This document shows, in pieces, positions 22,849 through 61,677 of a stretch of 64,000 nucleotides of DNA. Source of the stretch: Panicum virgatum (Eukaryota > Streptophyta > Magnoliopsida > Poales > Poaceae); the NCBI RefSeq assembly GCF_016808335.1, contig NC_053146.1, forward strand, positions 30,419,495 through 30,483,494, written 5' to 3'. The notes below the pieces were generated by a model, which worked only from the letters and a program-made list of their open reading frames with translations, searched no databases and was not told the DNA's origin. Both the position numbers and the translations under genes were made by a program. Positions within the stretch are counted from its first letter, which is position 1. Each line of letters starts with the position of its first letter.

Positions 22849-25800
22849 TGTGACACCCTAGGTGTCTGCACAGTAGTTGTGTATCTATTTTATGCATCAT
22901 GTGCTTGATTGTTTGAAAAAGGATCTTTTTGTAAATATAAAAGGTTATATGTGTAATTATGTTTTTATGCAAGGTCCTTTTTATAGTTTAATTTGAATAT
23001 GGTATGCAATTATTGCTTTTGTGCAGGGTGTATTTGCAAATTTCAGAGCAATCATTGCTTGGCAGAAAATCTTACTTTTTAGTCTACATTTGAGTTGAAT
23101 TTACAAGGGAAAAGACAAAAGTCCTTTGAATTCAAAATCCCTCTATGTTTTCAAAATTAACTATTTATACTTTGGTCAAATCAATTTTTGCACAACATCA
23201 AAGTTGTAGATCTTGAAAAGTTGAACAACTTTCATGTTGGGCACTTTTTCATTTGAGCCCAATATTAAAAGTTATCTTTGATTTACATCCGGGTCCCTGA
23301 AAATTTCTGAATTTGCGAATCAGCCCTTTTCCCCTTCTTCCAGCCTGCTTGTCTGCTCTGCTCCTTGGCGCCGCCAGTCAGCGCCGCCCGCCCGCCGCTC
23401 TGGGCCGGCCCACGCGTCACCCCCCTTGACCCCTGGACCCACTGCCCCCTCGCGCTGGTGCCCTCTTCGCTTTGCCACGCGCCCCAGGCCGCCCGCCGGT
23501 CGCCACCTCGCCGCCGCCGTGGCTAGGCCGACGCAGCGCCCCGGACCCCCATCTATCGTGCGCAGCAGCACCACTGGAAGTTCCGCAACATATTCCCCTC
23601 ATTCTCTCGCACGCTCCCTGCCCCGACTCCCCAAACCAGCGCCGCCGTTCATTCGTAACCCCGGCGAGCTCGACGCCGCCGCGGAGCCGCCACTGCAGCC
23701 CTCCTCCGCCCGCGCTGACCCCCTAGAAGCTCTATCGTGGGCCCGCGCAGCTCACCGACCCATCCTTCTGGCCCAATTTCCACCGGAGCCACCCCGCCGC
23801 CGTAGCCGGAAGCTCCACCGCCCTGCTCGCCGTGGAACCACTCCTCCTTCCTTCCTCTACCCAAATCAAGCACCCCACTAGCTCCCTGATGTCGAGGTGA
23901 AGCTCCCCGGCCACTCCACGCCACTTCTACCCCTCCGGAACACCGCATCCACCGCTAGCCGTCGCCGCCGGAGCAACTGCTCCGCGGGGAACCTCCAATC
24001 CGGCCACCCCGAGCCCCAAGAAGACCACCATCGGGTCGATCTCGTTCTACTCTTCGTTTTCCCCAACCCAACCCTCGCCGCCGGCGAGCCTAGCCGCCGG
24101 TAATGGCCGGCGCCCTTTCCCCTGTTCTCCCCTGTGGCCAGTGACCTCATGTTGAAAAGAAGCAGAAACCCAAGGGGTTATTTGAATAGCCCAAGACTCA
24201 TATGAATAGTAGCAGCAAGGGCCCCTTTGTAATTTTTGCTGTATACTTTGAAATTCCATAGAAATTTGTAGAAAATTCATAAAATAGCAAATCTAGTTGT
24301 TCTGGAATCCTTGTGTAAATATTTATGCAGTAGAATCATAATATGCTGGTTGTTAGTTGAAAATGTTTGCTAGAAAATTAGACTTATGTTACTAGGTGCA
24401 TAAAGGCTAGTTGATTATTCTTTTTATTAATTATTGCTTGAAGCCTTGTTATGCTCTGAAAATTTTATGGTGGTTTGTTCATGTGACACTAGTGTTTCTA
24501 TAAAAATTCCGTGGTCAGTTCTCATGTTTAGCTATTTCTTTGATTTAATGCTTGTTTAGTAGACTTTAATTATGATAAATATTTTTTTTGATGATAAATC
24601 ATGAAAATATTTATGAGTGTTCTTTCTGAAAATTTTAGCTTGTCCATGAAGTTTCAGAACCATTTCAAGAATATAACAGGAGCTAAAAATGAATCTTTTT
24701 AAGTTGATGTCTGTTTTGTTTATTTTCTCAGAATTAATTCTCTGTAGATAAAATCATGAAAAATTCACAGTAGCTAACTCATCGCTGTGTAGATCTACTA
24801 TTAAATTTTGAGATTCTTTTTTGCTATTTTTTAACCTGTATAATTCAATCTTGTTCTAGGTGTTGTCTGAATGAATGAATTGTTTTGAATAAATGGCTAC
24901 ATGTTTTGGCATAAAATTTACAGGATAGCTTACTCTGTTCATATTCTATTTAGTGTAATGTTTGTTAAATTTATTAATGTTTTTCCTCTGAGTTGTTGAT
25001 TTATTAACAAACCATAATTTAATTGCTATAGGAAGCTACTCCCACTTGTTTAGGAAGTTAGTATAGCTTTCTTGTGTTGTTGATCATGATGCCTTGTGTA
25101 GTTAGAAATGTTGAGTTACTACTCTATAAATGATTGCCCATGTGTGTATTAATTTTGTTTGCTTAGCTTCACTACATCGTGAGCGTGTTTATAATATTGT
25201 TCTTGCATTACATATATATACGACTGCTTTATCGGACGGCACGTACGAGCTGATCCCGGATTCCGAAGGAGGTGATCTCGAAGCTCAAGCGAACACTACT
25301 ATACTAACTGAAGCCCCGGACCAAAGTTCGGAAGAGCCCAGGGCTGAAGTAGTTAGTGACTACCGAGAAGGCAAGCCCCGGACATAACCTATAATTCAAA
25401 TTATTTCCATTTATTGTTATTACTTACTTGTGCATTTACAGTTCTTAGGATTTGAATTGAAACCCTAGATGCATGATCCTAGGAACCTATGTACTGAATA
25501 CTAGACCTGAGTTCGAATATTGCTAAGCTTATAGGGCCGGTAAAAGTCGAGTGATTTCCTGTCACTCGCGAGCTCTATAGGAACTGCTTGTTTACTTCCT
25601 GTTATCAATATAAGGACGAAGGACGGGGTTGTGTTCGATATCATGACTTTATGTGAAACCCCGTCTGTGTTGATGAACTTGCTAAGGTCGCGGTGTGTGG
25701 TAGTGCTTGGTTAAGTTTTTGAACGTACTAGCCACATGCCGTAAATATGGTATGCGGTAAGCCTAGTAACCGATTGGACCGGGGAGTGGATATACTGACA

Positions 25801-26812
25801 CTCTCTCTTTAGAGATAGGTTTTTATGTTATGTTGATCAACACCACGACTAGGAGGGACAAGGTTGGACCTTGGAGCCCTGTAGTCGGTGAGAGTGTTCC
25901 TATCCACAAGCCGGAAAGAAAGGCAAACGGTTGTTTGGGAATGACCCGACGGTGTTCCAAACGTATGTGTTAGGTCTGCCTAGCCAGGTTAACAAATTCG
26001 ATTTGAATCGTCTGCTTCCCACAGTTTGGGACTGCTTGATCTCTTTGCCACACAGAGTAATAAGAGCAACATTTTTATGATCAATCTTGATGTTTGCTTA
26101 AAGTTCTACCATGATTGAATAGTAGATGCTTACATAGAATGGTTAATCAACTAGAATCTAGGTAGCTAAAATGTGAAGTAAGGCCCTACTCTTTATTACT
26201 TTTCAGCAAAAAGGAAACCAGAGCCTGACAAACCCTGCATAGTCTAGCTAAAATGGGTTTAGTATACCCATTGACGATTAAGTCTTGCTGATTATTAGAA
26301 TACTCAGCCTTGCTGTTGAAACCCTTTTTCAGGTATGAGTTTCGAGGACCAACTCGCTAGTTTGTCTTGGCCTTGCTCTTTGCCTCCTGGCTGGTCCGTA
26401 GAGTGGGATACGTCTTCGGCCGGCAATGACCCTGACGAGTGATACCTTGCTTGGGCTAGCTTGGTATACTTTTGCGATGTGTTGTAGCCATCGTGTTTTT
26501 TTTCCATTGCTTTTCAAACTTTGAACTTACAGTTGTGGTTTGTATAACTGTTTTACAAAGTTTGGTTTTGTAATAAGTACTTTGAAACATGTTGTAATCA
26601 CTACTTTGCCTGTGTTGTAAAATTGTGGTTGTAATATCTCTGGACTCGCCTTCGTGCGGGGTATGCTTGTTCGATCCGAGAACCGGTGGTTGTATCGGGA
26701 CGTTACCCGACAGACCAAGAATTGTTCCTTTTGAAGTGCGTTTGAGCCGGTGTTGCCTTTAGGGTGATAGCCTGCGCACTTGAGCCGGGATAATTCAGGT
26801 GGTTCTGTCACA
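22849..26812 (+). repeat. Element A 5' LTR
   Basis: 3,964 bases from TGTGACACCCTAGG to GTTCTGTCACA; the ends are a 7-bp inverted repeat (TGTGACA/TGTCACA). AT-rich start, GC-rich block (about 23330-24120), AT-rich middle, segment E1 (25218-25370), segment E2 (26333-26442). The 3' copy (58216-61677) differs by many point changes and indels, including about 25 extra bases near 58779. The open frames of the GC-rich block (for example 23426-23881) are not conserved and are not called. Confidence 0.92.
25218..26442 (+). CDS. LTR-encoded segments E1 and E2, element A 5' copy
   Basis: E1, 25218-25370 (153 nt), encodes DGTYELIPDSEGGDLEAQAN and an acidic tail with QSSEEP. It ends GAGAAG|GCAAGC, a GC-type donor. 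E2, 26333-26442 (110 nt), follows CCCTTTTTCAG and encodes FEDQLASLSWPC, LPPGWSVEWDT and a stop at 26440. E1 leaves one base of a codon and E2 supplies two, making Gly. Element D has the same layout with different third positions. In this LTR the AG before E1 is mutated to AT (25216-25217); the 3' LTR keeps AG. That a protein is made is inference. Confidence 0.55.
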
Positions 26813-26814
26813 GC

Positions 26815-26826
26815 TGGTATCAGAGC
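26815..26826 (+). other. Element A primer-binding site (initiator tRNA-Met)
   Basis: TGGTATCAGAGC two bases after the LTR. It is complementary to the 3' end of initiator tRNA-Met, the usual primer of plant chromoviruses, and identical to the site of element D. Confidence 0.93.
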
Positions 26827-27097
26827 TGCAAGCGTACACCAGAGGTGTTGGAACCTTAAAAATCGCTTTTCGTATAAAATTGGAACAACAAGGTATTTCG
26901 GAAAACTACGTTGGAATCGTTAAGGGTTATGCATAGAACGTAAAGTCCTAGGGAATTTATGGGAATTACTAGGTGGCTATTTATGTATGGTTTATGTTAT
27001 CTGACTTCCAGAACTTTACAGTTTGTCAAACCATACTCACAAGCAACCCTTAATTTTTGTAACGACGCACCTACGTTAAGGTAAGAAGGTAAGGATC

Positions 27098-27294
27098 CTC
27101 AGTCAGCTGAGGGAGTCTGACCTTCCCGTCGGTGATGCGAGCCGAACGCTGCCCTTAAGCAGTGGCTTACTTGAGGTGCTCCCAATATACCAACTATTAG
27201 TTGACTATATTGGAAGTAAAGTGTACTCAGTCAGCCGAGGGAGTCTGACCTTCCCGTCGGCGATGCGAACCGATCGCTACGCTCAAGCAGTGGC
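27098..27294 (+). repeat. Tandem leader repeats of element A
   Basis: A unit of 128 bases starting CTCAGTCAGCTGAGGGAGTC is repeated from 27226; the second unit is split by Athila-2 and continues at 36820 to about 36875. Each contains GACCTTCCCGTCGG, GCAGTGGC and a hairpin flanked by CCAATATA/TATATTGG. Element D has the same arrangement in reverse at about 49623-49880. The repeats lie between primer site and gag, where packaging or dimer signals are found in retroelements; that role is inference. Confidence 0.75.
27182..27213 (+). other. Leader hairpin with paired changes, unit 1 of element A
   Basis: CCAATATA pairs with TATATTGG around an inner stem CAAC/GTTG. Unit 2 (36835-36865) keeps the outer stem and has CGAC/GTCG inside. 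Element D shows both versions, at 49758-49789 and 49630-49661. Confidence 0.6.
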
Positions 27295-35356: not shown

Positions 35357-36814
35357 TGTTGACGCTCTTTAGCACCCCGATTTGTATACCGCAAGCGCAC
35401 GGTTCGTGTAGCTTTTCACTTAGAGTATTCCCCCAAGGTTTATCAATCCATGGATCGACAAAGAACTACCTAAGGTTTTCCATCTAATCTAACGGATCTA
35501 TCCTAACATGAAGCATTGATTGCATATAAAGGGTAAACCTTTGACAGATATGAGTGATGTGTAAAGGTTGATCTCATGCATGAACATAGGCTTAATCATA
35601 GTAAAACCAAAGACATGACTAGGCCTATCGTCATCTAGTTGTAGTTCAAGCCAACGAGCAAATAAATCATGCATCTCAATCAAAAGCATCTTTAAACTCA
35701 AAATCTCCAATCCGATCCCTCGATACTCCGCCTACTCTGTGGAGACGGCCTGTCATGATGCCCCCTTTTGAACGAAATACCCTAAAGCAAGTCGAACCCC
35801 CTTTGGTAGTTCCGCCATGAACCTCTAGCCACCATGACTATTAGATCATGCTAAGCGATCTATCTCGATAATAGATCTAAGATGAAGCAAACCCAAAGAA
35901 AAGAACGAAATCGAAAGAGAGAACATGATCGCTAATAGATTCGGAAGACATGATTATCATTACTCACATAATAGATTCATTTGGATCGCCACCACCGAGT
36001 ACATACCATTGACGACTCCAACTAGCTCATGAACTCCACCATGGCACAACCTCGCAGGGAAGCCATGGCGGCTAGGGGTGGCCTAAGCCATCTCCTAGAC
36101 AACTTCGAAGACTTGCGGCGGCCGTCGTCTCCCTTCGGTCTTGGCCCTAGGTTTTCGTCGAGTTCTGGGTGGATGGATGACTCGAGATGAATAAGGTGCG
36201 AGCTATTTATAAGCCGAGGAAGCCATCGGTCGAAGGGGAGGCCAAACCGCCTTGAAAACGGGCTGGGCCGGCCGGCCCCATGGGCCTAGGCTGGCCGGCC
36301 TACCCTGTTTCGGGCTCGCCTCGGTCTCATTTTTCGCGTGCAGACTCCTCGCATCTTCTAGAGTTTATGTCCTTCACGATTGCACCCCTTTTGACGTCGT
36401 TTTCTTGGAGATATCTTCAAGGAAAGGATAGGATAGGGAATCCTTCCTTAAATCTTCATTTGCTTTGCTTAATCCTGAAGTATCTTGATCTCATCTTCGT
36501 GGGCTCGGTCCTTTGGGCTCTCTTGGAGGATGGATGTGCATGAATGGGCTTCGAATCAACATGGGCTTTAGTCCTTCCTTTGGGCTTTGGCCTTCGTCTT
36601 TCTCCGTGTTAGCACTCGATCACGGGCCTCGTCATTTCATGCTCCAAAATAGACCAAAAACCTGCAAAAACGAAGTTCCTCCAAAATATATGTGCAAGTG
36701 TGAAAATGAACAATAATTAGGCCGGGGTTAGGACAGTTAGTGATTTTGATATTAAATTCATGCCATTATCAAGGATAAACAAGGGATAAAGTGGGTAGTT
36801 AAGGAGCGCCAACA
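35357..36814 (-). repeat. Athila-2 5' LTR (right copy)
   Basis: 1,458 bases, ending AAGGAGCGCCAACA before target copy GTGGC. A roughly 12-base length difference from the left copy lies in the GGCCGGCC cluster (about 36266-36300). Minus-strand TATAAATA at 36204-36211. Other differences are scattered single bases. Confidence 0.92.
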
Positions 36815-36819
36815 GTGGC

Positions 36820-37503
36820 CTACTTGAGCTGCTGCCAATATACCGACCTCGGTCGACTATATTGGGAGTAAAGGGACTTGTGAATACGCCACTGAGTAGC
36901 GTATGTTAACGTTGGCCATACGGCGGAAATTATATGGCTGTCGCTTCTATAGTGAGCGGTAATGTATGGGGACGCTTTCATGAGTGCTGGCATGAAAGGT
37001 TCAATGGATATATATATATGTTCTGTCAATTTTCTACAGGTACACTAACCACGATTCGATAAGTTAAGAACGGTTAGAATTTACCGACTAGCTATATAGG
37101 GAGAGCCATATCTATGTTATGCCACTGTGCTAACCACGTAAGCCCAACCATAGTTGGCAATTGTTTATCTTGTGAGTAACGAACATGACGTGCATGCATA
37201 TTTGGTTGATGTTTGCTTTGATTCCTAGCATTTGAATTTGTTGCATGAGTTTTCTTAAGGAATTTCTAGCATGTATCTTCATGAGTATGTCCTGGCTTGG
37301 CTAAGTAATAGGTGGATCAAAATTTGATATTAGGAGCATCTTGTTGAAACATTTAGACTTTGTGGGTTTAAGAGAGTTCATCCTTAGTTCCATCTTGATG
37401 TCTTGATGATCTTTTCATTCCATAGAATCTCAAATGATGAACCAGTACCATTGATTGTGGGAGCAACAAAAATGTATCTAATGGATGTCTTCCATAATTA
37501 CAG
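36820..37503 (+). other. Element A leader, continued
   Basis: Resumes the interrupted leader repeat (hairpin at 36835-36865), then runs to gag. The part near 37060-37170 matches the leader of D at about 49325-49450 in reverse. No equivalent of the extra ORF of D is present. It ends TTCCATAATTACAG directly before the gag ATG, a possible 3' splice site. Confidence 0.65.
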
Positions 37504-38259: not shown

Positions 38260-41200
38260 TGTGGCAGTACCGCCCAAATTAATCCGGCTCAAGTGCGCTA
38301 ACCATCACCATACAGGAAATCCCGGCTAACACGCACTTCAAACGGAGTAATCTGGCAGTCCAGTCGGGTAAAGTCCCGATAAAACCACCTGAGCTGCATT
38401 CGAAACCCAAAGCTTACATGCAACTCACACGAAGGTGAGTCCAGAGAGTACAACATTTCACAGATATATTACATTACAGAGTCTTAACTTAATTATTACA
38501 AACCAAGTTCGAAATCTCCGAAAGGTACTTGAAGTTCAAATTGAAAGTAGATCAGAGTTTAATGCAGCGGAAATAAAACGAGTTCTAAACGACGATACAT
38601 GATGTCATGATGAAGCCCGTACATGACATCACTCGGCACTGCCATCGCTGGCCGGAGTCGTATCCCACTCCACCGACCAACCAGGAGGCAGAGTACACGG
38701 CCAAGTCAAACTAGCAATCATGTCCTCAAAAGTATTACCTGAAACAAAAATTGAGCCACAAGCAAGGCTGAGTATACTAATACTCCGCAAGGCTTACCCG
38801 ACTAGGATATAACTAAACCTCTAACTAGACATGCAAGGCTTTTGGCTTGAGGGGTTTGTCTTTGCCGAATAGCAGTGAGTCCTTATTTTCCGATTTTAGC
38901 TTTCAAGTTCTATTATGATTAACCATCCTACATTAGCATCTATCCTAAAGCATACATGGTGGAAAGCAATTATTTTTCATCAATCAACCAAATTTCTCAT
39001 CATCATTGTTCCACTTCTTACTCTATGTGGCAAAAGGGTTAAGCAGTCTCAATATCCGTGAGAGACGGACGATTCGAATCGAATTTGTTAACCTGGCCAG
39101 GCAGACCTAAACACACGCATGGGGAATGCAATCACCCACGTGACTTTTCCCCTTTTTCCCCGGGCATGAAACAGGCCCACCGTCCTAGGGTGCCCTGCAC
39201 CCGTGCGTGACCATAGACCAGACAGTGGGGAGTATGTTCCACGGCCGGTTCCATCAGGTACTTAAGCTTACCGATTACCATATTCTCGGCATGTGGTTAG
39301 TACGTTCAAACGCTTAACCACCACTACCACACACCGCGGCCTTATCCATTTTCACTAAACAGACGGGGTATCACAAGTACAACAACCCCGCCCGTAAACC
39401 TTATATTGCAGTGTGTAGTAAGCATTCAACTCCTATGAGCTCGCGAGTGACAGGAAATCACTCGACTTCTACCGAATCATTAGCATAGCCAACTAGCGAC
39501 CTACACATACTAGTGTTCAAGCATAGGTACCTAGGATCATGCAACTAAGGTTCCAATCAATTCCTGCAACTTAAATGCACAATAACCAGGAATACAGATA
39601 GTTGCATAAATAACAAAATAGGTAGGACATGCTCCGGGGCTTGCCTTCCTGAGCGGAGCTAGCCTTGGGCTCTTCTGAACTCTGGTTCAGGTCTTCAGTG
39701 GCTTCAGTTAGATTCACTTGAGCTTCACGCTGCTCATTCTCGGACTCCGGCACCAACTCGTACGTACCGTCAGGGAGAGTAGTCGAATCTATATGAAATG
39801 CATATGCGTGAGTTATATTAGTAATACGAATTAATCAATTCTTTACTATAGAGTTGTAATTCAACGCAACTCAAGATGATTTATAAAATATTCTGTTACA
39901 TTGTTTGGGCAACCATTTATAGAGTAATAATCATTATACTGACTCCACAAAGTAACTCGGATGGGTTGTCTCTTTTATCCCTATGCAGCAAAAGAAAGAT
40001 TTTTCTTATTTATTGCTAGGTTAAGCATGTCCTTATCATAAATAATGTTAAACAGAGATTCTGGGTTTGAAATTTTTATGTATGATACATATCTAAATAA
40101 CTTGCCTACTGTGAAATTTTCAGCCCATTTTATGCAGCCTATTTACCACGAAAAAAATAAAACAAACAGCTACTGCTGGAAACAAAAATGAATTTTACAG
40201 GTCAAACTATGCAAGTACTGGTAATGAAATTTTAACTGAATGTTTTATACCTAAAGATAAGCCTGCCATAAATTTTTCACAATTAAATAAGCATTTTACA
40301 GGGCATGAAAAATAGCACAAAGTAATGCTGCATGGATCGAAATTAAATTCCATAGGCTGTTATACTAAGTTCCAGAGCCTCATATCTTATCAGTATGGTT
40401 ATAAACTCAAGGTTAACCCCTAGAAAAATTATTAGAATTTTTCATGTACAGAAACTATTTTTCTTGATTTAGTGTAAATATCTATACTATTAATTAGTTG
40501 GACTGGTTCCATCTATCTTAAATTTCAAAATTTTGTACAGTAACTAAATATCAAGATAAAGTCATTGTAAAAGTTTGAGCTCATTAAACCAAGTTAAACA
40601 GTATGTACAAACAAACTAATTTAAACAAGGCATAAGGCAAGATTTAAATAAGCCGATAGCTAGGCATGTCAAAAGTTTATGAAACTTTTACACAATGTTA
40701 TACATCTAACATGTACCCCACTGACCAAAAATGGCTAACAACACATGCTTGTAACTTGGGATCTAATATAAACCACATTTCCTTTGCATTTTAAATGAAA
40801 TAAAAACTATTGAGCAAATGAAAAAGTGCATGTAACAAAAGTTGTAGATATCTTTTCTAGGATTCCATAACAGTTGAGTTTGTATTTTTCCGATTTTTCT
40901 ACGATTTTTAAATGAATTTACAAGTTCACTGGAAAATCTAGAAAATACAAAAACACAGATTGCAAAGGGGCCCCTGGATCTTTCACTTAACCCCCTGGAA
41001 ACCTAAAACAAATTGCGCTGGGGTCCCTGGCCGGAGGTAGGAGACAGGGGATGCGGCGGCGGCCCGTTTCCCAGCGAGGAGGGGCTTGCCGGCGACGGGG
41101 AGGGGGTCCTAGGGCAAGAGCTCGCCGAGATCTACCTAGGGGTGGGTGATGTGGTCGACGGGAACGGCCGGAGCAGGGTCGGCGGCGGCGTCCAGGGAGC

Positions 41201-42592: not shown

Positions 42593-45500
42593 TCAGATAA
42601 GCAAACTAAGCGAGGAAAAAGATGTACCTCCAGTTGAATTCAGAAAACCGGGGAAATTTTGATTTAGGTAGCTTTCAGTTTCCCAGGTAGCTTCCTCTTC
42701 GGTATGGTGACTCCATTGAATCTTGTACATTCTAACTGCTTTTCTTCGAGTGACCCTTTCCTTTTGATCAAGAACCTTGATAGGATACTCGACATAAGAG
42801 AGATCTGGTTCTACTAATATCTCTGTTTGTTCAATGATCTCGGTGGGGACTCGAACACATTTCTTGAGTTGAGAAACATGGAAAACATCATGTACTGCTG
42901 CCAGTCGAGGAGGAAGTCGTAGTCTATAGGCTACGGGTCCACAAATCTCAGTGATTTCATAAGGGCCAACATATCGTGGAGCTAATTTGCCCTTTACTCC
43001 GAATCTTTGTACACCCTTGGTTGGCGAGACGCGAAGATAGACATGATTACCCACTTCAAATTGCAAAGGGTCTCTCCTTTTATCAAAATAACTCTTTTGC
43101 CTAGACTGGGCGGCTTTTAAATTCTCTTGTATTACCCTCACCTTCTCTTCTGCCTCTGTTACGAGATCGGGTCCGAATACTACTCGTTCTCCGACTTGCG
43201 ACCAGCTCAAAGGGGTACGACACCGTCGACCATATAAGGCCTCAAATGGTGCCATTTTCAAACTCTCTTGATAAATATTGTTGTATGAGAACTCCGCTAG
43301 AGCTAGACATTTGTCCCAACTCTTGTCATAATGGATGACACAAGCTCTTAACATGTCCTCCAGGATTTGGTTTACCCTCTCAGTTTGTCCATCAGTTTGT
43401 GGGTGATAAGCTGAGCTTCGAATTAATTTTGTCCCAAGAGATGCTTGTAACTGTTCCCAAAAGCGTGCAACGAACTGTGTCCCACGATCAGAAATGATGG
43501 TCTTGGGTACCCCATGCAAACAAACAATACGATCGAGATAGATCTCAGCGTACTTCTTGGCAGTGTAAGTAGTATGTACTGGAATAAAATGTGCCGTCTT
43601 AGTGAGTCTATCCACGATAACCCAAATGGAATCATGCTTCTGGGATGTGTTGGGTAATCCAACGATGAAGTCCATACTTATATCTTCCCATTTCCACGAC
43701 GGGATAGGTAGAGGTTGAAGCAAACCGGCTACTCTCAAGTGGCTGGCTTTGACTCTCTGGCAGGTGTCACATTCCGAGACATATTTAGCAATTTCCCTTT
43801 TCATCCTAGTCCACCAGAAATTCTGCCTAAGATCTTGGTACATCTTGGTACTGCCTGGGTGAATAGAAAATTTGGAAAGATGTGCCTCGTCGAGAATTTG
43901 TTTCCGAAGATCGTGATTTTTCGGAACAACTAAACGACTTTCGAACCATAGGACTCCCTTATGGTCCTGACGAAAACACTTATACTTCCTTTCTCCTTGA
44001 GAGAGTTTCTGTTTAATGATCCCAACACCCTTATCATGTAATTGGGCCATAATGATCTGATCATGAAGGGTTGGTTCAACTGAAATGTGATTTAAGGTAC
44101 CTTGGGGAATCATTTCCAACTGGAGCTTCCTCATCTCATGACAGAGGGTTTCCGAATAGGATTCCACGGATAGGCAATGGCAATGAGCTTTGCGACTGAG
44201 TGCATCTGCTACAACATTAGCCTTGCCTGGGTGATAGTGCACCTCAAGATCATAGTCCTTGATTAATTCCAACCACCGTCTTTGTCTCATATTTAGATCA
44301 GCTTGAGTGAAAATATATTTGAGACTTTTGTGATCGGTGTAGATATTGCAATGAGTACCCATAAGATAATGCCTCCATATCTTTAGAGCATGAATGACTG
44401 CTGCTAATTCAAGGTCATGAGTAGGATAATTCTGCTCATGGGGTCGAAGAGCTCGTGACGCATAAGCAATAACTCTATTGTCTTGCATGAGCACACAACC
44501 AAGACCAGTACCTGACGCGTCACAATACACGTCAAAGGACTTGGTGTTATCAGGTTGAGCTAAGACAGGTGCTGTAGTCAACTGCTCCCTTAGGGTGTGG
44601 AAAGCCTTTTCACATTTTTCATCCCACACAAACTTTACTCCTTTCTTCAATAGTTCGGTCATTGGCTTAGCAATTCTGGAGAAATCCGGAATGAATCGAC
44701 GATAATACCCGGCTAAACCAAGAAAACTGCGAATCTGATGAACGGAGGTAGGAGGTTTCCAGTCCATTACTTCTTGCACTTTGCTAGGATCCACAGCTAT
44801 GCCTTCGCTGGAAATAGTGTGGCCCAAGAATTTCACACTATCTAGCCAGAATTCACATTTGGAGAATTTAGCATAGAGCTGATGGTCCCGAAGACGTTGG
44901 AGAACAATGCGCAGGTGCTTAGCATGGTCTTCCTCATTCTTGGAATAAATAAGGATGTCATCAATGAAAACCACGACGAACTTGTCGAGCTCAGGCATGA
45001 ATACCGAGTTCATGAGATACATGAAGTAGGCAGGTGCATTTGTGAGACCAAAAGACATGACTAAATACTCATAGAGTCCATACCGTGTGGAGAATGCGGT
45101 TTTAGGAATATCACATGGACGAATTTTAATCTGATGATAGCCGGAGCGAAGATCAATCTTTGAGAAAATCCTAGCTCCAGCCAGTTGATCGAAGAGAACA
45201 TCAATGCGGGGAAGGGGATATTTGTTTTTGATTGTCACCGCATTGAGAGGTCGGTAGTCCACACACAACCTCAAACTATCATCCTTTTTCTTTACAAAGA
45301 GGGCTGGACAACCCCAAGGTGATGCACTGGGGCGAATGAAGCCTTTGTCCAGAAGTTCTTGAAGTTGGATTTTTAACTCGGCCAACTCTTTAGGTGGCAT
45401 TCTATATGGCCTCTTTGAGATAGGGGCAGTGCCTGGTTGTAGTTCAATAATAAACTCAATCTCTCTATCTGGTGGCATTCCTGGCAAGTCATCCGGGAAC

Positions 45501-47080
45501 ACATCGGTGTACTCGCATACCACAGGAATTTCTTCTAGGTTGGATGTGCTCAGGGCAAATGCACAAGAATTGACACACTCTCGGAAGGGTAAATAGAGAG
45601 TAGTGGCTCCATATTTTGGTGAATTTAATTCGACCGCCCTGGCGGGAATATCTATTATAACCCCATGCTGAGTCATCCAATTTATCCCCAAGATGATATC
45701 TATACCCTGAAGTGGTAGGAGTATAAGGTCGGTGTTGATGGTCAGGCTACCCAACTTGATTGGCACAAGCCGTGTTATTTGATTCGAAGCGATTTTACCC
45801 CCTGGGGTTGATATCATGTACGACCCTTTTGTGTGAGTAAAATCCAAACCCATTTTTGCACCAAATTTTGCACCAATGAAACTATGCGATGCACCAGAAT
45901 CAAATAATATAACTGCAGGCTTGTTGTGGATAGAAAATGTACCCGTCATCACTGGTGCGCCCTCAGGAAGTTCTGCAAGAGTGGTGAAATTGATACGCCC
46001 TTGCTTGACCTGAACAGTTTGCCTTCTGCCCTTGTTCTTGTTGTTTTGATTAAAGCCTTGACCCTGGTTTTGTCGCCTGGGTTGCGGGCACTCACGGGCG
46101 AAATGAGTTGAGCTCCCACAATTGAAACAACGGTTTCCCCCACTTGGACGAGCTGGCGGTGGAGCAGTTGGCCTTGGGCCAGTTAACTGAGGAATAGGGA
46201 AACGTGCAACACTTTGCTGCAGTGGAGGCCTGATAACCCAACGCCCTGGCTGAGGGGCTTTCTGAGGAATCTGGGGTGCAACATTCTGTATTATGCGATA
46301 TCTCTGTGGCTGCGCACTAGAGGGTCCAGCTGGCGCTTTCCTCTTTTTCTCAGCACGGTGAGTCATGATACAGTCTTCTTGAGTGAGTGCGAGATTTACC
46401 AGCTCATTGTATGTGTCGACCCTAATGGGGTTTAGTCGTTCCTTGAGCTTGGTGTTTAAGCCTCTACGAAAACGATCACGCTTCTTAACATCTGTGTCAG
46501 CATGATAGCCCGCGTACTGACAGAGATTGTTGAAAGCTTGGGCATATTGGAGAACTGTACGTGTCCCTTGAGTAAGAGCCAGGAACTCATTCAGCTTCCT
46601 GTCCATGAGTCCTTCTGGAATACGGTGGCCCCTGAATGCAGCCTTGAATTCATCCCAAGTGACAACTTGATCAGCTGGGAGCATGCCAAGGTAGTTATCC
46701 CACCACAGACGTGCCGAACCGCGAAGCTGTTGCGCGGCAAAGCGAGCCTTGTTTTGTTCTGAGCATGGTGCCAGAAGTAATGAAAACTTGGACTCAATTG
46801 TGCGAATCCAAGCATCCGCATCCAGTGGCTCTTCTGTCTTATTGAACAGAGGGGGCTGAGTTGCCAAGAATTCCGGGTAACCAGCAGCTTGAGGTTGATG
46901 AACATTGGGTCCACCCCGTTGCTGTTGCTGTTGTTGCTGTCCCTGGACGAGTTGACGGAGTAACTCGGTTTGGGCGGCCAGATACTCCGCGAAGTTGGGT
47001 GGCGGTGGTGGCGGTCGCTGCGAACTGCTGCCATTCGCGTCCCCGAAACCCTCAGGGTTGCCACATGTCGCTCCCACCAT
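42593..47080 (-). CDS. gag-pol: Element D gag-pol polyprotein, uninterrupted
   Basis: About 1,495 residues in one frame. I start at the ATG at 47080 (MVGATCGNP), because it matches the start of A and follows CCATTCCAG, a 3' splice-site-like sequence; the frame is open six codons further. Domains: capsid core about 65-240; zinc knuckle C318-X2-C321-X4-H326-X4-C331; protease D394-S-G; RT about 550-740 with FIDD at 705-708; RNase H D854, E891, D916, D959; integrase HHCC H1067, H1074, C1104, C1107 and D1137, D1198, E1234 (DD35E spacing); chromodomain-like tail about 1420-1475 ([20 protein letters not shown]). Gag and pol share one frame, so their ratio must be set after translation or by other means. 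Confidence 0.96.
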
Positions 47081-47098
47081 CTGGAATGGCAAATTCAC

Positions 47099-47737: not shown

Positions 47738-48613
47738 CTAAAAGTCGTCCAGGTTGTTGACGGAAGACTCGCTCCTCACTGGAGAGTGAGCTCCCGAAAG
47801 TGGTGGCAGGGGCACTCCAGACATAGTGTCAAGTCCTGAGATACCCTGAACCTCCTGGGGCTCCTCCTCCATGGCCTCGGGCTGGGCCTGCTGAGCCTCC
47901 AACATCTCAATGTGATCAAAGGCAGCATGCAACTGAACCTGCTGGGCGGTGAACTGCTGCTCCAAAAGGGCAAAGTCAGCATCTCTGTTGTCCAAGAGAA
48001 CATCACGCTCCTCAATTAGACCCTCTAGTTCGCCAACATGGGCATCAAGATCCCTGATCTGCTCATTCTTAGCAATCACTATCTCATGGCTGGTCCGTGC
48101 AGAAGCAATGATCTGGGTCATGGCCTTGGCCTGTAAAGTCTGCAAGCGGTAGAGTGCATTCATGCACTTCACTGTCATGGAGATAGTCTCTGCAGCTCTG
48201 TTCTGCTGAAGGTACCCAGTGTGTCCGACCCGACTAAGCCAGTTAGGGTCATGGGGCTGCTCTGCTGGGAAGAGGCCAATAGGAGCTAGTGTGATAGCTG
48301 CATAATTCTTTTCACAAAACTTGTTGAGTGCTGTCATGGCTGCAACTTCCCAAGTGTCAACCAGACGGTGTCCAACTACCTCCAGCTCCAAGGAAGCCCA
48401 GTGATCTGGAAAAGGGTGGGGAGCATGAGTCATGCGCACGCGACAGCGCGCAACTCCCATCTCATGGAACTCCTCGCCCACGTAGCGCGGGGGACTGGGA
48501 TATCCAGCATCGCGCATCACCTCCCAAAGAATGGAGGGAAAACCCTGCCAGTGTGTGCACTCGGAGTGTGCACGCCCATCCTCATCAAACACCAGGAGAG
48601 CAGGGGCAGCCAT
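47738..48613 (-). CDS. Extra ORF upstream of gag in element D
   Basis: About 291 codons, uninterrupted. I choose the ATG at 48613 (MAAPALLVFDEDGRAH) because it follows CATCTTTTGTACAG, a 3' splice-site-like sequence; the frame is open 27 further codons with a hydrophobic, unlike composition. The N-terminal part looks globular (WQGFPSILWEVMRDAGYPSP, RVRMTHAPHPFPDHWASLEL). The middle to C-terminal part is Glu/Gln/Leu-rich with coiled-coil-like spacing (DLDAHVGELEGLIEERDVLL), and the tail is acidic. No protease, RT or zinc-finger motif. Extra ORFs between the 5' LTR and gag are known in some plant Ty3/gypsy elements; I cannot name the function. Element A has no counterpart. Confidence 0.75.
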   Translation of the reverse strand: MAAPALLVFDEDGRAHSECTHWQGFPSILWEVMRDAGYPSPPRYVGEEFHEMGVARCRVRMTHAPHPFPDHWASLELEVVGHRLVDTWEVAAMTALNKFCEKNYAAITLAPIGLFPAEQPHDPNWLSRVGHTGYLQQNRAAETISMTVKCMNALYRLQTLQAKAMTQIIASARTSHEIVIAKNEQIRDLDAHVGELEGLIEERDVLLDNRDADFALLEQQFTAQQVQLHAAFDHIEMLEAQQAQPEAMEEEPQEVQGISGLDTMSGVPLPPLSGAHSPVRSESSVNNLDDF

Positions 48614-50141
48614 CTGTACAAAAGATGTACACAAGTGAGTGATGGCTAAAACAGATTTTAGGTAGTGCACAAAAACGAGTATAACTGAAAGCATGGAGCT
48701 CTAAAAATTCTCAAAATTTACAGGGACATTACTTAGGTTGTTAGAAACAACTTTGCTAGTCAACTCAAGAGCTAGATCAGAGCCTAAGAAGGTCTTATCC
48801 TTATAGTTTGCTTTGCTGTCAGCCCAAAATTTTCAGTGACCAGAGAGCTAGTAAACTGAGTGCTGAGGTCAAACCACTAAGCCTAAAACCACCAAATTTT
48901 TACAGAAGCTTGGTGAGTAAATTGGGCATAAGTTTTGTGTTGAACACATCTGCAGAAAACATTTCTAGGACGGCCTAAAAATTCGTGCAACTCAGGTGCT
49001 CAAAGCTGACAGAAAAACAGGGTGTCAAAGTTTCTAGTGTACCCTATGGTATACAAGTTGGAAAATTCTCAAATTTAAACAGAAGCTAGTAGACGAGTTT
49101 TGGAGCAAAATTATCCACTGGCGCTTCTACAGATAAAGTCATCTACCATGTCAAACAAATTCACCTTCCAGGCTATAGCAGAAAATGACAGATTTCTAGA
49201 TAGACCTTAAGTGAGAGGAGAGGAACCGTGCTCACGGGCAACCTTAACATTCCCGACTAACCCACATCTATTTTCTTTGGCTTTCAATTTTATGAGCATG
49301 ATGCATGCACGACCTAATCGTCCTTCCAAAGAAAACAATTGCCAAATAGTTTTGGGCTTACGGGGTTAGCACCGGTGGCATGGCACAACTTACGTCTCTC
49401 CCTATATATATTTCTAGCCGAGTTCTAACCGTGCTTAACTTACGTAATCGCGGTTAGTGTACCTGCAGAAAATTGACAGATATAAATTTCATTGAACCTT
49501 TCATGCCAGCACACATGAAAGCGTCCCCATACATTACCGCTCACTATAGAAGCGGCATCCATGCGTCCAACACTGCATGGACAGCGCTCATACGCTACTG
49601 AGGTGACGTATTCACGTTTTCTTTTACTCCCAATATAAATGACCGATGGTCGGTATATTGGCAGCAGCTCAAGTAGGCCACTGCTTGAGCACAGCGTTCG
49701 GTTCGCATCACCGACGGGAAGGTCAGACTCCCTCAGCTGACTGAGTAAACTTTACTCCCAATATAGCCAACTAATAGTTGGTATATTGGCAGCACCTCAA
49801 GTAAGCCACTGCTTGAGGGCAGCGTTCGGCTCGCATCAGCCGACGGGAAGGTCAAACTCTCTCAGTTGACTGAGGATTCTTACCGTCTTACCTTAGCGTA
49901 GGTGCGTCGTTACATAATGTAAAGTACTGAATTTAAAGTACAGAAAGTAATGTGCTGGAAGTCAGTTATAAATAAACCATAAGTTAGATAGCCACCTAAA
50001 ACTCCCATAATATTCCCTAGGGCTTTACGTACTATATACAATCCTTAACGAACCAACGTATTTACCAAACGCGATTTTGTGGCTAAGTTTTAAGTAAAAC
50101 TTTTAAAATCTAGTCGCACTCTCGGGTGTGCGCTTTGTTCG
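48614..50141 (-). other. Element D leader
   Basis: From the primer site to the extra ORF, about 1.5 kb non-coding. Includes two tandem units (about 49880-49751 and 49752-49623) with GACCTTCCCGTCGG and the hairpins below, and a part near 49325-49450 that matches element A's leader. Confidence 0.65.
49630..49789 (-). other. Leader hairpins of element D
   Basis: Two CCAATATA...TATATTGG hairpins at 49630-49661 (inner stem GACC/GGTC) and 49758-49789 (inner stem CCAAC/GTTGG). Same two versions as in the leader repeats of element A. Confidence 0.6.
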
Positions 50142-50155: not shown

Positions 50156-53100
50156 TGTGGCAGTACCGCCCAAATTAATCCGGCTCAAGTGCGCTAACCA
50201 TCACCATACAGGAAATCCCGGCTAACACGCACTTCAAACGGAGTAATCTGGCAGTCCAGTCGGGTAAAGTCCCTATAAAACCACCTGAGCTGCATTCGAA
50301 ACCCAAAGCTTACATGCAACTCACCCGAAGGTGAGTCCAGAGAGTACAACATTTCACAGATATATTACATTACAGAGTCTTAACTTAATTATTACAAACC
50401 AAGTTCGAAATCTCCGAAAGGTACTTGAAGTTCAAATTGAAAGTAGATCAGAGTTTAATGCAGCGGAAATAAAACGAGTTCTAAACGACGATACATGATG
50501 TCATGATGAAGCCCGTACATGACATCACTCGGCACTGCCATCGCTGGCCGGAGTCGTATCCCACTCCACCGACCAACCAGGAGGCAGAGTACACGGCCAA
50601 GTCAAACTAGCAATCATGTCCTCAAAAGTATTACCTGAAACAAAAATTGAGCCACAAGCAAGGCTGAGTATACTAATACTCCGCAAGGCTTACCCGACTA
50701 GGATATAACTAACCCTCTAACTAGACATGCAAGGCTTTTGGCTTGAGGGGTTTGTCTTTGCCGAATAGCAGTGAGTCCTTATTTTCCGATTTTAGCTTTC
50801 AAGTTCTATTATGATTAACCATCCTACATTAGCATCTATCCTAAAGCATACATGGTGGAAAGCAATTATTTTTCATCAATCAACCAAATTTCTCATCATC
50901 ATTGTTCCACTTCTTACTCTATGTGGCAAAAGGGTTAAGCAGTCTCAATATCCGTGAGAGACGGACGATTCGAATCGAATTTGTTAACCTGGCCAGGCAG
51001 ACCTAAACACACGCATGGGGAATGCAATCACCCACGTGACTTTTCCCCTTTTTCCCCGGGCATGAAACAGGCCCACCGTCCTAGGGTGCCCTGCACCCGT
51101 GCGTGACCATAGACCAGACAGTGGGGAGTATGTTCCACGGCCGGTTCCATCAGGTACTTAAGCTTACCGATTACCATATTCTCGGCATGTGGTTAGTACG
51201 TTCAAACGCTTAACCACCACTACCACACACAGCGGCCTTATCCATTTTCACTAAACAGACGGGGTATCACAAGTACAACAACCCCGCCCGTAAACCTTAT
51301 ATTGCAGTGTGTAGTAAGCATTCAACTCCTATGAGCTCGCGAGTGACAGGAAAATCACTCGACTTCTACCGAATCATTAGCATAGCCAACTAGCGACCTA
51401 CACATACTAGTGTTCAAGCATAGGTACCTAGGATCATGCAACTAAGGTTCCAATCAATTCCTGCAACTTAAATGCACAATAACCAGGAATACAGATAGTT
51501 GCATAAATAACAAAATAGGTAGGACATGCTCCGGGGCTTGCCTTCCTGAGCGGAGCTAGCCTTGGGCTCTTCTGAACTCTGGTTCAGGTCTTCAGTGGCT
51601 TCAGTTAGATTCACTTGAGCTTCACGCTGCTCACTCTCGGACTCCGGCACCAACTCGTACGTACCGTCAGGGAGAGTAGTCGAATCTATATGAAATGCAT
51701 ATGCGTGAGTTATATTAGTAATACGAATTAATCAATTCTTTACTATAGAGTTGTAATTCAACGCAACTCAAGATGATTTATAAAATATTCTGTTACATTG
51801 TTTGGGCAACCATTTATAGAGTAATAATCATTATACTGACTCCACAAAGTAACTCGGATGGGTTGTCTCTTTTATCCCTATGCAGCAAAAGAAAGATTTT
51901 TCTTATTTATTGCTAGTTTAAGCATGTCCTTATCATAAATAATGTTAAACAGAGATTCTGGGTTTGAAATTTTTATGTATGATACATATCTAAATAACTT
52001 GCCTACTGTGAAATTTTCAGCCCATTTTATGCAGCCTATTTACCACGAAAAAAATAAAACAAACAGCTACTGCTGGAAACAAAAATGAATTTTACAGGTC
52101 AAACTATGCAAGTACTGGTAATGAAATTTTAACTGAAGGTTTTATACCTAAAGATAAGCCTGCCATAAATTTTTCACAATTAAATAAGCATTTTACAGGG
52201 CATGAAAAATAGCACAAAGTAATGCTGCATGGATCGAAATTAAATTCCATAGGCTGTTATACTAAGTTCCAGAGCCTCATATCTTATCAGTATGGTTATA
52301 AACTCAAGGTTAACCCCTAGAAAAATTATTAGAATTTTTCATGTACATAAACTATTTTTCTTGATTTAGTGTAAATATCTATACTATTAATTAGTTGGAC
52401 TGGTTCCATCTATCTAAAATTTCAAAATTTTTGTACAGTAACTAAATATCAAGATAAAGTCATTGTAAAAGTTTGAGCTCATTAAACCAAGTTAAACAGT
52501 ATGTACAAACAAACTAATTTAAACAAGGCATAAGGCAAGATTTAAATAAGCCGATAGCTAGGCATGTCAAAAGTTTATGAAACTTTTACACAATGTTATA
52601 CATCTAACATGTACCCCACTGACCAAAAATGGCTAACAACACATGCTTGTAACTTGGGATCTAATATAAACCACATTTCCTTTGCATTTTAAATGAAATA
52701 AAAACTATTGAGCAAATGAAAAAGTGCATGTAACAAAAGTTGTAGATATCTTTTCTAGGATTCCATAACAGTTGAGTTTGTATTTTTCCGATTTTTCTAC
52801 GATTTTTAAACGAATTTACAAGTTCACTGGAAAATCTAGAAAATACAAAAACACAGATTGCAAAGGGGCCCCTGGATCTTTCACTTAACCCCCTGGAAAC
52901 CTAAAACAAATTGCGCTGGGGTCCCTGGCCGGAGGTAGGAGACAGGGGATGCGGCGGCGGGCCCGTTTCCCGGCGAGGAGGGGCTTGCCGGCGACGGGGA
53001 GGGGGTCCTAGGGCAAGAGCTCGCCGAGATCTACCTAGGGGTGGGTGATGTGGTCGACGGGAACGGCCGGAGCAGGGTCGGCGGCGGCGTCCAGGGAGCG

Positions 53101-58215: not shown

Positions 58216-61200
58216 TGTGACACCCTAGGTGTCTGCACAGTAGTTGTGTATCTATTTTATGCATCATGTTCTTGATTGCTTGAAAAAGGATCTTTTTGTA
58301 AATATAAAAGGTTATATGTGTAATTATGATTTTATGCAAGGTCCTTTTTATAGTTGAATTTGAATAGGGTGTGCAATTATTGCTTTTGTGGAGGGTGTAT
58401 TTGCAAATTTCAGTGCAATCATTGCTTGGCAGAAAATCTTACTTTTTAGTCTACATTTGAGTTGAAGTTACAAGGGAAAAGACAAAAGTCCTTTGAATTC
58501 AAAATCCCTGTATGTTTTCAAAATTAACTCTTTATCCTTTGGTCAAATCAATTTTTGCACAACATCAAAGTTGTAGATCTTGAAAAGTTGAACAACTTTC
58601 ATGTTGGGCACTATTTCATTTGATCCCTAGATTAAAAGTTATCTTTGATTTACATCCGGGTCCCTGAAATTTTCTGAATTTGTGAATCAGCCCTTTTCCC
58701 CTTCCTCCAGCCTGCCTGTCTGCTCTGCTCCACGGCGCCGGCAGTCAGCGCCGCCCGCCCGCCGCTCTGGGCCGGCCGCAGGCCAACTCCAGCTTCGCCG
58801 CCGCCCCACGCATCACCCACCTTGACCCCTGGACCCACTGCCCCCTCGCGCTCGTGCCCTCTCCGCTATGCCACGCGCCCCAGGCCGCCCGTCGGTCGCC
58901 ACCTCGCTACTGCTGTTGCTAGGCCAACGCAGCGCCCCAGACCCCCATCTATTGTGCGTAGCAGCACCACTGGAAGTTCCGCAACACATTCCCCTCGTTC
59001 TCTCATACGCGCCCTGCCCCGACTCCCCAAACCAGCGTCGCCGTTTATCCGTAACCTCGGCGAGCTCGACGCCACCACGGAGCCACCACTGCAGCCCTCC
59101 TCCGCCTGCGCTGACCCCCTAGAAAGCTCTACCGTGGGCCCGCGCAGCTCACCGACCCATCCTCCTCGCCCAATTTCCACCGGAGCCACCCCGCCGCCGT
59201 AGCCCGAAGCTCCGCCGCCCTGCTCGCCGTGGAACCGCTCCTCCTTCCTCCATCTGCCCAAATCAAGCACCCCACTCGCTCCCTCATGTCGAGGTGAAGC
59301 TCCCCGGCAACTCCACGCCACTTCTACCCCACCGGAACACCGCCTCCGCCGCTAGCCGTCACCGCGGGAGCAACTGCTCCGCGGGGAACCTCCAATCCGG
59401 CCACCCCAAGCCCCAAGAAGACCACCATCGGGTAGATCTCGTTCTACTCTTCATTTTCCCCAACCCAACCCTCGCCGCCGGCGAGCCTAGCCGCTGGTAA
59501 TGGCCGGCGCCCTTTCCCCTGTTCTCCCCTGCGGTCAGGGACCTCAGGTTGAAAAGAAGCAGAAACCCATGGGGTTATTTGGATAGCCCAAGACTCATAT
59601 GAATAGTAGCAGCAAAGGCCCCTTTGTAATTTTTGCTGTAAACTTTGAAATTCCATAGAAATTCGTAAAAAATTCATAAAATAGCAAATCCAGTTGTTCT
59701 GGAATCCTTGTGTAAAGGTTTATGCAGTAGAATCATAATATGATGGTTGTTAGTTGAAACTTTTTGCTAGAAAATTAGATTTATGTTACTAGGTGCATAA
59801 AGGCTAGTTGTTTATTCTTTTTTTTAATTATTGTTTGAAGCCTTGTTATGCTCTGAAAATTTTATGGTGGTTTGTTCATGTGACACTAGTGTTTCTATAA
59901 AAATTCTGTGGTCAGTTCTCATGTTTAGCTATTTCTTTGATTTAATGTTTTTTAGTAGACTTTAATTATGATAAATAGTTTGTATTGATGATAAATCATG
60001 ACAATATTTATGAGTGTTCTTTTTGTATAGTTTAGCTTGTCCATGAAGTTTGGGCATCAGTTCATGAACATAAAAGGAGCTAAAAATGAATCTTGTTAAG
60101 TTGATATCTGTTTTGTTTATTTTCTCAGAATTAATTCTGTGTAGATAAAATCATGAACAATTCACAGTAGCTAACTCATCCATGTTTCGACCTACTGTTA
60201 AATTTTGAGATTCTTTTTTGCTATGGTTTAACCTGTATAATTCAATCTTATTCTAACTGTTGTCTGAATGAATGAATTGTTTTGAATAAATGGCTACATG
60301 TTTTGGAATGAAATTTACAGGATAGCTTACCCTGTTGATATTCCGTTTAGTGTAATTTTTTCTAAATTTATTACTGTTTTTACTCTGAGTTGTTGATTTA
60401 TTAACAAACCATGATTTAATTGCTATAGGAAGCTACTCCCACTTGTTTAGGAAGTTAGTATAGCTTTCTTGTGCTATTGATCATGATGCCTTGTGTAGTT
60501 AGAAATGTTGAGTTACTACTCTATAAACGATTGCCCATATGTGTATTAATTTTGTTTGCTTAGCTTCACTACATCGTGAGCGTGCTTATAATATTGTTCT
60601 TGCATTACATATAGATACGACTGCTTTTTCGGACGGGACGTACGAACTGATCCCGGATTCCGAAGGAGGTGATCTCGAAGCTCAAGCGAACACTACTATA
60701 CTAACTGAAGCCCTGGACCAAAGTTCGAAAGAGCCTAGGGCTGAAATAGTTAGTGACTACCGAGAAGGCAAGTCCCAGACATAACCTATAATTCAAATTA
60801 TTACCATTTATTGTTATTACTTACTTGTGCATTTACAGTTCTTAGGATTTGAATTGAAACCCTAGATGCATGATCCTAGGAACCTATGTACTGAATACTA
60901 GACCTGAGTTCGAATATTGCTAAGCTTATAGGGCCAGTAAAAGTCGAGTGATTGCCTGTCACTCGCGAGCTCTATAGGAACTGCTTTGTTTACTTCCTGT
61001 TATCAATATAAGGACGACGAACGGGGTTGTGTTCGATATCATGACTTTATGTGAAACCCCGTCTGTGTTGATGAACTTGCTAAGGTCGCGGTGTGTGGTA
61101 GTGCTAGTTATGTTTTTGAACGTATTAGCCACATGCCGTAAATATGGTACGCGGTAAGCCTAGTAACCGATTGGACCGGGGAGTGGATATACTGACACTC

Positions 61201-61677
61201 TCTCTTTAGAGATAGGTTTTTATGTTATGTTGATCAACACCACGACTAGGAGGGACAAGGTTGGACCTTGGAGCCCTGTAGTCGGGGATAGTGTTCCTAT
61301 CCACAAGCCGGAAAGAAAGGCAAACGTTGTTTGGGAACGACCCGACGGTGTTCCAAACATGTGTGTTAGGTCTGCCTGGCCAGGTTAACAAATTCGATTC
61401 GAATCGTCTGCTTCCCACAGTTTGGGACTGCTTGATCTCTTTGCCACACAGAGTAATAGGAGCAACATTTTTATGATCAATCTTGATGTTTGCTTAAAGT
61501 TCTACCATGATTGAATAGTAGATGCTTACATAGAATGGTTAATCAACTAGAATCTTGGTAGCTAAAATGTGAAGTAAGGACCTACTCTTTATTGCTTTTC
61601 AGCAAAAAGGAAACCAGAGCCTCACAAACCCTGCATAGTCTAGCTAAAGTGGGTTTAGTATACCCGTTGACGGTTAA
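58216..61677 (+). repeat. Element A 3' LTR, truncated by element C
   Basis: Parallel to 22849-26270 of the 5' LTR, with substitutions and indels. Stops at GACGGTTAA, where element C begins; the missing last about 540 bases, including segment E2, should resume right of C, outside the window. Confidence 0.9.
60615..60767 (+). CDS. LTR segment E1, element A 3' copy
   Basis: 153 nt, following ACATATAG (the AG is intact here) and ending GAGAAG|GCAAGT, a perfect GC-donor. Encodes DGTYELIPDSEGGDLEAQAN as in the 5' copy, with a few changes in the acidic tail. E2 is cut off by element C. Confidence 0.5.

Follow-up and report, generated by a model that had tools for sequence, protein, structure and literature searches.

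The locus and its two exon-like segments

The stretch of Panicum virgatum DNA considered here (contig NC_053146.1, positions 30,419,495 to 30,483,494; 64,000 nucleotides, nt), henceforth the window, is made up of nested long terminal repeat (LTR) retrotransposons, an element D on the minus strand having been inserted within an element A on the plus strand. The 5' and 3' LTRs are referred to as A5 and A3 for A, and as D5 and D3 for D. Plant LTRs are usually treated as non-coding control regions; our subject is a pair of short segments, E1 and E2, which lie within these LTRs on either side of a GC-AG intron and form a single reading frame when joined.

22849..26817, plus strand: 5' LTR of A (A5); 93.9% match to 58216-61677 over 3465 columns, with TGGTATCAGAGC next to it
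58216-61677, plus strand: 3' LTR of A (A3), cut at 61677
54460-50151 and 42558-38255, minus strand: LTRs of D (D5, D3), 4.3 kilobases (kb) long; 99.3% identity over 4312 columns
25218..25370, plus strand: E1 of A5, 153 nt (2+150+1 nt), no in-frame stop
25371..26332, plus strand: GC-AG intron of A5, 962 nt, from the sequence and from spliced database relatives
26333..26442, plus strand: E2 of A5, 110 nt, with TGA at its end
60615..60767, plus strand: E1 of A3, whose E2 is lost with the end of the LTR
51542..51685, minus strand: E1 of D5, 144 nt
50635..51541, minus strand: GC-AG intron of D5, 907 nt
50525..50634, minus strand: E2 of D5, 110 nt
39645..39788, minus strand: E1 of D3
38629..38738, minus strand: E2 of D3, identical to E2 of D5 over 105 coding bases

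We take TGGTATCAGAGC, directly 3' of A5, to be a primer binding site (PBS) of the tRNA-Met type. The preliminary description of this DNA had already given the lengths of E1 (153 nt in A, 144 nt in D) and E2 (110 nt in both) and their common stop, and these coordinates were confirmed; a single 9-nt gap accounts for the difference in E1, and the D3 intron measures 906 nt. The donor reads AAG/GCAAG in all four LTRs, a pyrimidine-rich AG/GT acceptor precedes E2 in the three LTRs that keep it, and in these three (A5, D5, and D3) E1 joins E2 in frame and runs to the common stop, just as had been proposed. The residues FED, ASL, WPC, and LPPGWSVEWDT and the position of the stop are indeed common to E2 of both elements. 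The "C equivalents" mentioned at that stage fared differently: no other copy of E1 or E2 turned up in the window in a six-frame profile search, and only the second LTR of D fits them.

Database proteins joined at the predicted junction

A collection of 5.8 billion proteins was searched with the joined frame of D and then with a five-row profile; the best 120 of 587 matches and the best 120 of 2650, respectively, gave 184 distinct proteins. Among these 184 listed proteins, at least six carry E1 fused to E2, with the intron absent and the join exactly at the predicted junction, namely P0001 (AQEG/NTFED), P0002 and P0008 (AQEG/ETFED), P0121 (YREG/MSFED), P0124 (AQEG/TNFED), and P0130 (TSKD/NAFED), the junctions predicted from the window being YREG/MSFED for A and AQEG/NTFED for D. 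The six show 48 to 86% identity to the first member of the set. Both splice sites can be read from comparison with unspliced relatives: P0001 and the unspliced P0127 are identical over 71 residues and diverge exactly at the donor, and P0124 and the intron-bearing P0193 have E2 in common from the acceptor onward. In 149 of the 165 fetched proteins that bear an E1 signature, the frame runs on beyond E1 with K after EG, as the first codons of the intron (GC AAG) predict.

The joined proteins are unevenly distributed by source, 6 of 18 from jgi against none of 166 from elsewhere (164 ena, 2 src; Fisher p 3.7e-7 among the 184 listed), in counts made by eye that exclude 14 later matches, an unspliced jgi protein among them; the jgi source presumably includes metatranscriptomes. 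DNA copies derived from spliced RNA would imply splicing too. The spliced forms belong to relatives and not to A or D. GC and GT donors look alike at the protein level; the GC is read only in the DNA of A and D. Twenty columns are invariant across the six, including F-E-D, L, W, C, and GWSVEW, which is supportive only, the frames having been selected by gene callers and the DNA of the proteins being out of reach. The GC-AG intron and exact in-frame junction of the preliminary description are thus matched in six joined proteins, which are new and constitute the strongest and decisive support for the junction; judged from these sequences, splicing of the E1-E2 intron appears close to certain.

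In three other proteins (P0122, P0123, and P0125) the DGTYEL...EAQ part of E1 is duplicated in tandem and in frame, in two or three units. A single match among genome contigs (L004) was dropped, as bacterial DNA, probably of an efflux pump, surrounds its short LPPGWSVEW match; three scans of viral contigs yielded no relatives, and the matches found there were judged to be chance.

Probable coding constraint

Selection was counted by the Nei-Gojobori method on one pair, A5 against D5, with mutations after the insertion of A contributing noise. The ratio of nonsynonymous to synonymous substitution (dN/dS) in this pair is 0.56 for E1, 0.41 for E2, and 0.49 for both, compared with 1.29 and 1.27 for E1 and 0.81 and 4.13 for E2 in the shifted frames. 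Amino-acid identity over E1 and E2 amounts to 49 of 83 codons, against 40.6 +/- 2.9 when the substitutions are placed randomly (p 0.004); random placement matches the observed identity in 3.0% of runs for E1 alone, 4.1% for E2 alone, and 0.4% for both, and an internal stop arises in 89% of the simulated sequences. In a six-frame scan, 14 of 149 scan windows are free of stops in both elements (9 sense, 5 antisense), and all nine sense ones fall in the frame of E1 or E2, in some cases with a start as much as 45 nt to the left of E1.

The argument that most differences fall at third positions did not hold, their distribution over the three codon positions being 14/13/18 in E1 and 10/6/9 in E2; the case for a selected protein that was built on it stands, to a moderate degree, on the dN/dS of this one pair and on amino-acid conservation across families. 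On this one pair, purifying selection on the frame is likely, if less secure than splicing, and it seems fairly probable that the joined frame encodes a selected protein.

The upstream leader and the start of the frame

An AG lies left of E1 in A3, D5, and D3 but not in A5. Farther upstream, a GC-rich stretch, the candidate leader exon E0, ends in a donor-like site common to A3, D5, and D3 and is followed by AT-rich sequence, which delimits a candidate intron 1.

24035..25217, plus strand: candidate intron 1 of A5, between E0 and E1 (donor-like site, composition step)
51686..53034, minus strand: candidate intron 1 of D5, like that of A5 (donor-like site, composition step)

When E0 is joined to E1 the frame is open for 25 codons in A5 and A3 and for longer in D5 and D3, with an ATG within this open part in D5 only. 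A search for longer products with the E0 frame of D plus E1 and E2, scored on E1 and E2, yielded 14 matches of 22 candidates; it reached proteins of about 131 to 418 residues and favoured long frames. None of the 14 shows the E1-E2 or the E0-E1 join, which leaves candidate intron 1 without a joined sequence among these matches. A Met start does lie left of E1 in P0001 (by 38 residues), P0002 (7), and P0121 (9). P0001, at least, has the same sequence left of E1 as the unspliced P0127, which implies that some RNAs retain the would-be intron 1. Translation might begin at a non-AUG codon, in E2 alone, or, in certain families, at an AUG to the left of E1.

Two ideas concerning this region were set aside. 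Proteins starting with L or V had been considered contig ends that mark the start of transcription, and alternative start codons fit them better; depletion of AUG in E0 and E1 as a sign of a leader was not significant (lowest P 0.098, with the D segments cut one base off). Clear likeness between the A and D LTRs starts at 25204, the preceding 100 nt being only 43% identical in the alignment. Within otherwise dissimilar sequence, about 95 nt left of E1, the two have in common a short stretch with the TATA-box-like CTCTATAAATG (25117-25140, plus strand, in A; 51803-51826, minus strand, in D), which is possibly a second promoter.

The predicted product

Of the 84 residues in the joined frame of D, 19 are acidic and 2 are basic, and the six joined proteins contain 16 to 22 acidic residues. 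No relative of the product was found in Pfam or the PDB (best PDB E 0.27); P0121 matches the WW domain over 13 of 31 positions, with E 0.2 and 12.2 bits against 26.9, which leaves it outside that family. A model of P0002 built from six sequences is of low confidence, with a mean predicted local distance difference test score of 54 and a predicted template modelling score of 0.16, and largely lacks structure apart from two strands and two helices, all of them short. The product is probably small, acidic, and mostly disordered. A hydrophobic patch surrounds FED..ASLTWPC.LPPGWSVEWD, and an acidic disordered chain with such a patch may resemble acidic activation domains. RNA export factors like Rev and Rem carry a basic, arginine-rich RNA-binding stretch, which is absent from a product of this charge. 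The composition suggests that the product would most likely recruit a host factor for expression of the element, as opposed to binding RNA or DNA.

Objections and alternative explanations

Several observations weigh against the reading of E1 and E2 as a spliced protein-coding gene. ATG is missing from all frames of E1 in both A5 and D5, no start codon common to A and D was found, and in the unspliced reading of D5 and D3 a stop lies shortly before E1; the preliminary description was silent on the first two points, as it was on a possible leader exon and further intron upstream. With regard to the database proteins, the sample type (RNA or DNA) of the joined contigs is not visible in the records, open frames are to be expected among joined proteins picked by gene callers, and 13 of the 14 longer matches run beyond the E2 stop position, in a search that favoured long frames. 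The dN/dS values come from a single pair of elements, and the best open scan window (z 2.27) ranks 13th, below 12 that all contain stops. DNA identity between A and D is 68% in E1, 64-74% in the intron depending on the part, and 77% in E2, so that E2, but not E1, is better conserved than the intron. The protein reading is based on sequence only, and the role in recruiting a host factor is a conjecture drawn from the residue composition.

The likeliest of the alternatives, although an unlikely one, is that the intron is real and E1 and E2 are untranslated leader exons, with splicing serving to shorten a structured leader or to aid export and the open frame being a by-product of conserved leader RNA. 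The lack of an ATG in E1 and the equal conservation of E1 and intron DNA suit this view, as does the folding of two intron segments of A, which is better than that of shuffled sequences (z -2.8 and -1.8). The third segment of A (z +0.5) and all those of D (z -1.5, -0.5, and -0.2) are unremarkable, which makes the evidence for an RNA element in the intron mixed. A search of Rfam gave no match at gathering thresholds. The codon statistics, the restriction of the length difference in E1 to 9 nt, and the identity of every shared open sense scan window with E1 or E2 also speak against an untranslated leader.

It is quite improbable that the sole product is a peptide of E2, translated from an AUG close to or at its start as an upstream open reading frame (ORF) that tunes translation of ORF0 or gag. 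A5 does have an ATG two bases into E2, D has one in frame six codons in, and dN/dS is lower in E2; yet the AUG is placed differently in the two elements, E2 of P0124 and P0130 lacks Met, codon constraint extends to E1, and the most conserved part is not C-terminal.

Host-gene exons carried passively in the LTR would explain the gene-like exon-intron structure and the GC-rich to AT-rich step upstream, but their presence in A, D, and divergent families is not what passive recent capture would produce, and the lack of a Pfam or PDB relative (the search having covered these and not plant gene sets) points the same way, so that we consider this origin highly improbable. Chance, which the short frames and moderate statistics within the window alone might have allowed, is hardly tenable given six sequences joined at a junction predicted beforehand.

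Classification of elements A and D

42593..47098, minus strand: gag-pol frame of D, with Pfam matches; 1501 codons between stops, the first ATG being at 47080
47738..48613, minus strand: ORF0-like frame of D, 291 amino acids, ahead of gag-pol, with no Pfam match

The main frame of D matches the Pfam families of gag, protease, reverse transcriptase (RT), RNase H, and integrase, in the Ty3/gypsy order with integrase after RT-RNase H. The chromodomain (PF00385) scores 19.9 bits in D and 22.2 bits in A, both under the cut-off of 25.1, and the internal regions of A and D are 75.6% identical over 3398 columns. The main text of PMC3485330 describes Retrosat2 as a rice family with LTRs longer than 3.2 kb and an ORF0, and the available part of PMC6317226 files it under Tekay. 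D has the corresponding traits, an LTR above 3 kb (4.3 kb) and a 291-residue frame before gag-pol, and A and D are likely Retrosat2-like Ty3/gypsy elements of the Tekay clade, a placement by layout and not by an RT tree or ORF0 sequence.

A proposed mechanism and its implications

We incline to the reading that E1 and E2 are exons of a small LTR accessory gene, in which spliced leader RNA would make the protein and unspliced RNA would provide the genome. The gene would occupy the downstream, conserved portion of the LTR in grass Retrosat2-like (Tekay-type) elements, which places it within the 5' leader of the element RNA and before ORF0 and gag-pol. Partial splicing agrees with the lower strength of GC donors compared with GT donors; the weak donor would leave much of the RNA unspliced, to be packaged and reverse transcribed, with the spliced RNA being translated. 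Spliced RNA would yield intronless LTRs, so the LTR can keep its intron only when new copies come from unspliced RNA.

A more extended proposal, which we put forward tentatively and regard as doubtful, is that grass Tekay-type elements undergo multiple splicing like retroviruses, with up to three introns in or just behind the LTR. Spliced RNAs would give the LTR-encoded acidic accessory protein and also ORF0 and gag, with starts right after acceptors, and unspliced RNA alone would retain structured intron elements and be packaged as genome. In D, a CAG acceptor-like site immediately precedes the first ATG of the ORF0-like frame and likewise that of gag-pol (48611-48616 and 47078-47083, minus strand), an arrangement that would suit alternative splicing to one start or the other. 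A and D also have in common a GTAAG donor-like site behind the PBS and an acceptor-like site, TTTTCTGCAG or TTTTCTACAG (49463-49891, minus strand, in D; about 27076 and 36810-37199, plus strand, in A), which flank structured units; the interval is a candidate third leader intron, of which no spliced form was encountered. The units, tandem and about 128 nt long, lie just behind the PBS (49625-49886, minus strand, in D; 27090-27294, plus strand, in A), are 85% alike and non-coding, and fold better than shuffled sequences (z -2.6, -3.9, and -2.8); among the 39 pairs of the consensus for three units, 3 show a compensatory change and 2 are disrupted in one unit. They are possibly a packaging or dimerisation element, and coding in this conserved stretch was ruled out by stops in every sense frame.

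If the accessory-gene reading is true, a selected frame split by an intron within the LTR means that each new copy must derive from unspliced RNA and that the element must keep spliced and unspliced RNA in balance, in the manner of complex retroviruses. Such a frame would also help to explain the great length of these LTRs and reveal a source of false host genes in grass annotation, and the defined junction would allow these abundant families to be tracked by RNA-seq.

Comparison with known systems

A 2025 review (PMC12786077), in its available part, presents plant LTR elements as mostly intronless, with Ogre and EVADE as exceptions; these two (see also the consulted part of PMC6317226) resemble the present case in the splicing of plant LTR retrotransposon RNA. 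No coding, intron-bearing plant LTR was encountered in the titles and opening parts of abstracts searched, a coverage that most subscription papers fall outside. Retrosat2, in rice and its relatives (Tekay/Del), is alike in its LTRs above 3 kb, its ORF0 before gag-pol, and its chromovirus type, but its paper deals with U3, R, U5, and regulatory motifs of the LTR, and a word search of the main text finds "intron" nowhere and "splic" once, in a reference (PMC3485330). The additional ORFs of plant elements are likewise extra genes beside gag-pol, but those in the accessible part of PMC7264820 are located in the internal region and not in the LTR. CERV of the Caenorhabditis elegans element Cer1, as portrayed in the consulted part of PMC10309623, is also an accessory protein of an LTR retrotransposon made from spliced RNA, but one that exports unspliced RNA, the likeness being one of description and not of sequence comparison. 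The statement in the preliminary description that LTRs are not expected to code has to be qualified by the precedent of mouse mammary tumour virus (MMTV), whose superantigen (Sag) is, in the part of PMC3026287 available, an LTR-encoded protein from spliced RNA; this likeness, too, is by description and not by sequence comparison. Sag uses an acceptor that lies just upstream and is read in the 3' LTR, whereas in E1 and E2 the intron itself lies inside the LTR and splits the frame.
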